Assembly (NCBI RefSeq): GCF_003862495.1
Contig: NZ_RRCH01000027.1
Location: forward strand, 1 to 49,649
DNA: 49,649 bases
Direction of reading: 5' to 3'
From: Halocatena pleomorpha
GTDB lineage: Archaea; Halobacteriota; Halobacteria; Halobacteriales; Haloarculaceae
Positions 12,114 to 43,520 of the stretch are shown one piece after another (position 1 is the first letter of the stretch; each line of letters starts with the position of its first letter). A program made the translations under genes and the position numbers. The notes under the pieces are model-generated. The model searched no databases. It saw nothing but the letters and a program-made list of their open reading frames with translations, and had not been told where the DNA came from.

Positions 12114-12186
12114 AGCGTGAACTACCCCACCTACCGATCGCCTGACGGCTCGCGCTTGAGGGTGGGCCTTCCTGTTTCCACGACGT

Positions 12187-12230
12187 TGCCAGACTATGTC
12201 TGGCAGCCAGCCAGAACCATAAGTTCTGGC
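12187..12230 (-). repeat. Palindrome doublet 2 inserted in the tnpB remnant
   Basis: There are two perfect hairpins four bases apart. 12210-12230 has 8-base arms (GCCAGAAC) and a 5-base loop; 12187-12205 has 8-base arms (TGCCAGAC) and a 3-base loop. It splits SAKRV from ETGRPTLK. About 50 bases were added, so the reading frame changes. The layout (two hairpins, short spacer, about 50 bases in all) is the same as doublet 1 although the arm sequences differ. Confidence 0.78.
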
Positions 12231-12287
12231 GAACGCGCTTTGCAGATACAAGAGTATCCACAGGGAGTGCAGTCTCCACAGGCGTTG

Positions 12288-12337
12288 ACGAGACGCGATA
12301 CGTCTCGTTTGCCAACCAGAAATCTGAGATTTCTGGT
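12288..12337 (-). repeat. Palindrome doublet 1 inserted in the tnpB remnant
   Basis: There are two perfect hairpins six bases apart. 12315-12337 has 11-base arms (ACCAGAAATCT) around a single base, and 12288-12308 has 8-base arms (ACGAGACG) around a 5-base loop. The unit interrupts the TnpB tail between GRSEST and PVETAL. TCAACG occurs on each side as a direct repeat, like a target-site duplication. The 57-base insertion keeps the frame. Confidence 0.8.
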
Positions 12338-12473
12338 GACGTTGATTCGGAGCGTCCCGCTCCTACAGCTTGCAGGCCGCGAGAAAGGATGTTCCACGCC
12401 GCGTTCGCGTCCCTATCCGCCTCGAACCCACACGCCGGACAGTAAGCGAACATTCATCAGTAGACATTGAATG

Positions 12474-43116: not shown

Positions 43117-43520
43117 GTTTACTGTTTATAAATATTTTGTTCTACTGCTGTTACTTGCTGCTGTTACATACTAGACGTTCGTCTAGATGTTGTTTCACTA
43201 TGCTAGTTTGCTAGCTGTTCTAGCTAGCTGTTCCACTATCTAATGATTATTAACTTAATAGTTACTAATTATATAATAATTAATTATTAATTATTATAAT
43301 TAATACATAGCTAATAATGTAGATGTGAGTGTTAGACTATTGGTTATGAATAGATACTTCATTAGAACAACAATTAACTAGTGTACGGATTTTTTATGCT
43401 GTATATAATGTAGTATATAGTTTTGTGCTGTGTATAACGTTGTATGTGAATATGGGTATGTGGATATAGGTATATGGATATAAATTATTTTCTAATTTTC
43501 GGTGGAGTGTTAACTGTATT
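43117..43520. other. AT-rich duplex-unwinding region of the origin
   Basis: The 400 bases are strongly AT-rich with long A/T-only runs (43240-43310), where AATAATTAATTATT is itself palindromic, and with near-tandem TATGGGTATGTGGATATAGG-like units at 43450-43483. The composition contrasts sharply with the flanking boxes. This is the expected site of strand opening. Confidence 0.75.

Follow-up and report, generated by a model that had tools for sequence, protein, structure and literature searches.

Paired-hairpin inserts in a TnpB remnant of Halocatena pleomorpha belong with a dispersed group of haloarchaeal hairpin doublets

Two short inserts in what remains of the 3′ part of a Halocatena pleomorpha TnpB gene very probably belong to a haloarchaeal family of paired-hairpin elements ("doublets") that are non-coding and non-autonomous, measure around 50–60 bp, and insert 3′ of a CG dinucleotide in one orientation. 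Doublets are dispersed across haloarchaeal genomes, and a single TnpB base has been occupied repeatedly by doublets with different stems. Mobility is read here from the comparison of genomes, among which no strain-level insertion was seen.

Two inserts in a TnpB remnant

The window, meaning the whole stretch of 49,649 nucleotides that was analysed (contig NZ_RRCH01000027.1), carries the following features.

12117–12453, minus strand: 5′-truncated TnpB (IS1341-type) gene, a 3′ remnant of 337 bp that includes the stretch expected to encode the omega-RNA scaffold
12283–12339, minus strand: insert 1 (TnpB site 1), a 57-bp paired-hairpin element; junction empty in other copies
12315–12337, minus strand: hairpin 1 of insert 1, 10-bp stem and 3-nt loop
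12288–12308, minus strand: hairpin 2 of insert 1, 8-bp stem and 5-nt loop
12184–12233, minus strand: insert 2 (TnpB site 2), a 50-bp paired-hairpin element; junction empty in other copies
12210–12230, minus strand: hairpin 1 of insert 2, 8-bp stem and 5-nt loop
12187–12205, minus strand: hairpin 2 of insert 2, 8-bp stem and 3-nt loop

The Cas12f1-like_TNB tail is recognised in the remnant with an E value of 1.1e-5, just below the curated cut-off. The remnant is 87% identical to a longer TnpB copy in its own genome (G000:C12, locus L002) and can be aligned with more than 100 intact TnpB tails. The first-pass annotation had described two inserts, each of two hairpins with a 4–6-nt spacer, that split the conserved tail, the first keeping the reading frame and the second shifting it. 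Comparison with empty TnpB copies, by which the exact boundaries (12283–12339 and 12184–12233) were set, confirms this description and gives lengths of 57 and 50 bp. Insert 1 has the layout TCACCAGAAATC..GATTTCTGGT-TGGCAA-ACGAGACG..CGTCTCGT-CAACG and amounts to 19 codons, in frame and without a stop; its hairpin pair spans 12288–12337, with stems of 8 and 10 bp and a 6-nt spacer, and it matches the covariance model of the family with an E value of 5e-23. Insert 2, laid out as TTCGCCAGAAC..GTTCTGGC-TGGC-TGCCAGAC..GTCTGGCA-ACG, shifts the frame, and its pair spans 12187–12230 (stems of 8 and 8 bp, 4-nt spacer). Both lie inside the stretch expected to be omega-RNA. The TnpB copy at L002 shares both pairs with the remnant, position for position, and carries a third doublet at L002:773-823, where its reading frame breaks.

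These two are the only hairpin pairs in the window with stems of at least 8 bp, and none appeared in 10 Markov shuffles. The probability that the inserts are chance palindromes or assembly artefacts is negligible: the shuffle controls, the recurrence of doublets in independent assemblies, and the exact empty sites described below all stand against it, and no support for it was found. Elsewhere in the window, positions 43266–43305 hold an adjacent inverted-repeat pair (TAATTATATAATAATTA / TATTAATTATTATAATTAATA) that is AT-rich, unlike the GC-rich doublets.

Empty and occupied junctions

Junctions are written below with a caret at the insertion point. Among the best-matching 150 TnpB tails, site 1 is empty in 136 and site 2 in 146; the query was the doublet-free tail and its ranking favours empty copies, so these counts are not frequencies. 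The empty junction reads GAATCAACG^CCTGTGG at site 1 and AAAGCGCG^TCGTGG at site 2. The hairpins are thus not a constant part of all tnpB copies; their presence at the same place in every intact copy had been set beforehand as the result that would refute insertion. Site 1 is occupied by five doublet types at the same junction, and their differing stems still pair.

Filled copies are scattered over a tree of the TnpB tails, a quick tree with several long branches, on which at least 16 changes are needed and a single clade of filled copies is rejected; one ancestral insertion is likewise rejected by this tree. Part of the scatter could stem from precise loss or from exchange of sequence between TnpB tails by recombination. 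Beyond the TnpB sites, an empty homologue was found for 68 of the 178 doublets in the loci compared, a few of the 68 being differences in array length; examples are GATACAGCG^CCGTCATC and CCTACTGCG^CTACTCGG. No target duplication beyond CG was seen at the comparisons of empty and occupied sites.

Anatomy of the doublet

The consensus is CG^TC(C/A)-hairpin-(TGTGCGA/TGGCA)-hairpin-NAACG^. At the left junction, CG comes from the target and TC from the element, and the GTC before hairpin 1 is invariant or nearly so; CG in the target logo was imposed by the search, and the point on CG rests on the empty sites instead. The right end is NAACG irrespective of the sequence on the left. Insert 1 (57 bp) is flanked by a TCAACG repeat (CGTTGA on the plus strand), previously read as a target duplication; this repeat is not one, because NAACG belongs to the element itself and is found at sites with differing left flanks. 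An exceptional type, TCGTC..AACGA, is inserted at GTTG^CTCC (L054) and at TnpB site 1 (L218).

Stems are mostly 8–10 bp and begin with CC, TC, or AC; loops are mostly of 3 nt and sometimes of 5, and the spacers are TGTGCGA, TGGCA, or TAGCA. The stems covary. Across 73 distinct, nearly ungapped doublets, 97.8% of stem cells are paired, and double changes account for 130 cells, in 13 of the 18 pairs, against at most 22 in slid-partner controls.

Distribution of the family

Short matches in the H. pleomorpha genome share one plan, in which CGTC is followed by a hairpin with CAGAA..TTCTG and, after a short spacer, by another hairpin and AACG. A covariance model built from six copies gives 42–52 matches in this genome (both-strand duplicates included) and finds matches in 53 of 59 relatives, with a maximum of 90 in one genome. 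In a phylum-wide sample, 48 of 53 haloarchaea have matches, against 3 of 242 other genomes; those three (G194, G204, and G211; family f24, genus g81) belong to one genus, and their matches are weak (E 1e-6 to 1e-8). A scan of 84,980 species genomes for the exact pattern gave at least 120 matches, haloarchaeal only among the matches listed. Searching by structure alone yielded 168 doublets in 707 kb, from loci partly chosen by motif, versus 1 after shuffling. An Rfam search returned no family at the doublets; L009:778-823 matches the Rfam eL15-Euryarchaeota ribosomal protein leader.

The proposal of a mobile or recurrent paired-hairpin element is thus upheld in the form of a dispersed family with empty and occupied sites and several doublet types at one junction. 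Growth of the hairpins on the guide RNA, its alternative, is not supported as their origin, because many places outside TnpB carry the same element.

Two further arrangements were seen. An interspersed repeat of around 0.6–1.2 kb occurs five times in this genome (L022, L025, L028, L030, and L032, on G000 contigs C61, C23, C34, and C33), its copies are 79–87% identical, and a similar paired-hairpin type lies at the same place in all five. Tandem arrays of many alternating hairpin units (L043:1389-1617, L130:5664-5860, and L145:5163-5319) follow the order CGTC-hairpin-TGTGCGA-hairpin-AACGTC-hairpin.., which looks as if doublets insert into doublets.

Orientation, targets, and reading frame

At the non-coding site upstream of TnpB, the orientation of doublets relative to the target is 29:0, and at the left-end hairpin site it is 10:0, the single "rev" call there not being a doublet; transposon-amplified copies within these counts are not independent, and several stem types are included. 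As CG is self-complementary, both directions would be expected if a double-strand mechanism recognised CG and nothing else. Selection may additionally act on orientation at site 1, because a reverse insert opens with a stop (CGT TGA or CGT TAA, from sequence).

TnpB-like sequence lies within 400 bp of 99 of 176 doublets (56%), in loci found without reference to TnpB, compared with 4.7% for positions drawn at random from those loci; passive spread of some doublets inside amplified transposons inflates this association. Inserts at site 1 are 57, 60, or 54 bp long in 23 of 24 cases (the other is 56 bp), and 20 of the 24 are also stop-free. Multiples of three thus make up 23/24 at site 1 versus 68/106 at other sites (Fisher p 0.0012), which suggests selection for the TnpB frame. 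The same figures are the opposite of what inactivation would leave, and they weigh against a host or transposon-defence device in which the elements are directed into IS605/TnpB to disable them, as was proposed for SMR-A of Haloquadratum (PMC3119063). That precedent, the strong preference for TnpB elements, and the broken frames at site 2 and at the third doublet (L002:773-823) all speak for such a device, yet a host gene is hit too, and we consider it improbable.

The host gene is the conserved haloarchaeal DUF5781, which contains an in-frame, hairpin-bearing array in this genome (G000) and in a congener (G003); the gene has no interruption in 13 further genomes, of which five are congeners. 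In G034, where TnpB has a single hit and Y1 none, doublets L243, L247, L253, and L259 lie inside long ORFs, possibly host genes.

In the predicted omega-RNA fold, insertion at site 1 keeps 98.9% of core pairing, whereas the site 2 insert disturbs the fold more than most positions would; the preference for paired target bases is significant but small (0.81 vs 0.77, p 0.0035). The retained pairing, the covarying stems, the multiples of three in 23 of 24 site 1 inserts, and the placement of both sites in the 3′ end expected to encode omega-RNA would also fit an integral, evolving part of that RNA, with an ancestral stem pair that compensatory change has maintained and that some copies have lost. 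Most TnpB copies, however, lack doublets, filled copies do not form a clade, and the same element lies upstream of TnpB, in left-end hairpins, and in DUF5781, a TnpB-free and transposon-free insertion with empty orthologues. Together with the perturbation at site 2, these observations render an omega-RNA origin decidedly unlikely, and insertion of a dispersed element is the reading retained below.

A candidate route of movement

The proposed element consists of TC(C/A), hairpin 1, a spacer, hairpin 2, and NAACG; it would be non-coding and non-autonomous, and would enter directly 3′ of CG, usually with C or T next, facing one way with respect to the target and causing no duplication of it. Its main targets would be the structured ends and the omega-RNA region of IS200/IS605-type (TnpB) elements, in addition to some host genes, and within coding sequence the copies that survive would be those that keep the frame. 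The absence of duplication, the fixed orientation, and the hairpins near unequal ends are what single-strand transposition by an HUH/Y1 enzyme would give, and thus we infer HUH/Y1-like cleavage and strand transfer on single-stranded DNA. A candidate enzyme, supplied in trans, would read the hairpins and the unequal ends CG^TC and AACG^.

That enzyme may be the Y1 transposase (TnpA) of resident IS200/IS605 elements, with doublets as hairpin decoys of its ends, a possibility that we take seriously while doubting it. Lack of duplication, fixed orientation, subterminal hairpins, and unequal ends all resemble IS200/IS605 chemistry, doublets are associated with IS605-type elements, and across 59 genomes doublet number correlates with the number of Y1 transposases (rho 0.36, p 0.005). 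The correlation with TnpB is stronger, however (rho 0.48), Y1 and TnpB themselves covary, and the CG junction is unlike TTCAC, the sequence at the right end of the TnpB elements examined. Two Y1_Tnp-negative genomes are also rich in doublets (G034 with 30, at 99% completeness, and G052 with 50, at 63%). No transposase could be tied to the family: just 2 of the 176 doublets have a Y1 gene within 400 bp. Such rare adjacency, like the doublet-rich, Y1-free genomes, gives no support to a Y1 transposase as the only mobiliser. Clustering of neighbouring genes for a dedicated transposase was confounded by doublet-encoded peptides, which link unrelated ORFs.

More speculatively, the doublets might be pan-haloarchaeal minimal single-strand elements specialised on transposons of RNA-guided nucleases, which would recognise one base of TnpB/omega-RNA, insert in frame, and add a hairpin pair to the guide RNA; this fuller picture is rather unlikely as a whole. 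If it were true, TnpB elements would become vehicles of doublets or have their guide RNA remodelled. Doublets in the expected guide-RNA region of TnpB bear in any event on the tolerance of RNA-guided nucleases for inserts. Haloarchaea are genetically tractable hosts, and the defined empty and occupied junctions and the strict orientation rule make the mechanism testable.

Relation to known short palindromic elements

Fungal mitochondria harbour double-hairpin elements, in which two adjacent hairpins are inserted in and between genes; unlike the doublets, these are organellar, and their sequence is unrelated as far as known. Together with CGTC REPs and SMRs, they are short palindromic repeats of unexplained movement for which no transposase has been identified. 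The haloarchaeal doublets are here grouped with such short palindromic mobile repeats as a variant, outside both the CGTC REPs and SMR-A, because they lack defining features of each. No description of this haloarchaeal doublet was found in a literature search that covered few subscription journals.

The CGTC-tagged REP superfamily (Di Nocera et al. 2013, PMC3733652) consists mostly of head-head dimers, includes Neisseria dRS3 and Rickettsia RPE-4/RPE-6, and is listed from bacterial phyla only. Its stem-loop units are tagged at one end with CGTC (or TGTC/CCTC) and have a stem of 8–9 bp with A-T pairs at the first two positions, a loop of 4–5 nt, and a CCA-type unpaired tail. The doublets likewise have CGTC (also TGTC) beside a short perfect stem of around 8–10 bp; in both, each element has a pair of inverted hairpins, stem variants are compensatory, and clusters and insertions inside genes and palindromes occur, with no dedicated transposase known. 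The doublets differ in that their stems start with CC, AC, or TC rather than with A-T pairs, the spacer is TGTGCGA/TGGCA with no CCA tail, AACG usually takes the place of GACG at the second end, the host is haloarchaeal, and the association with TnpB is strong. Every doublet has two hairpins, but head-head symmetry, with GTC on the left and GAC on the right, occurs in only 5 of 168.

In Haloquadratum walsbyi, the small mobile repeats named SMR-A (2011, PMC3119063) are around 110 bp long, have terminal inverted repeats, and within a type are commonly >95% identical. Both they and the doublets are haloarchaeal, lack a transposase and target duplication, are enigmatically mobilised, and insert mainly into IS605-type elements and their palindromes. 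The doublets are, however, only 50–60 bp long, with two separate hairpins, very diverse stems, a pan-haloarchaeal range, and the ends CG^TC and AACG^; SMR-A (HqIRS42/43/55) is set apart by description and not by sequence.

REPINs and the GTAG REPs mobilised by RAYT (TnpA-REP) are also short and non-autonomous, with two inverted hairpins and high copy number, but the doublets carry no GTAG tag and no RAYT was found. Archaea have only IS200-type subclass 1.1 Y1 proteins (PMC6006769). With IS200/IS605 elements and PATEs, the doublets share the lack of duplication, orientation-specific insertion after a short target, and subterminal hairpins; they are gene-less and far shorter, and their junction is CG as opposed to a TTCAC-type boundary. 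From a conventional MITE they differ in having neither terminal inverted repeats nor a target duplication.
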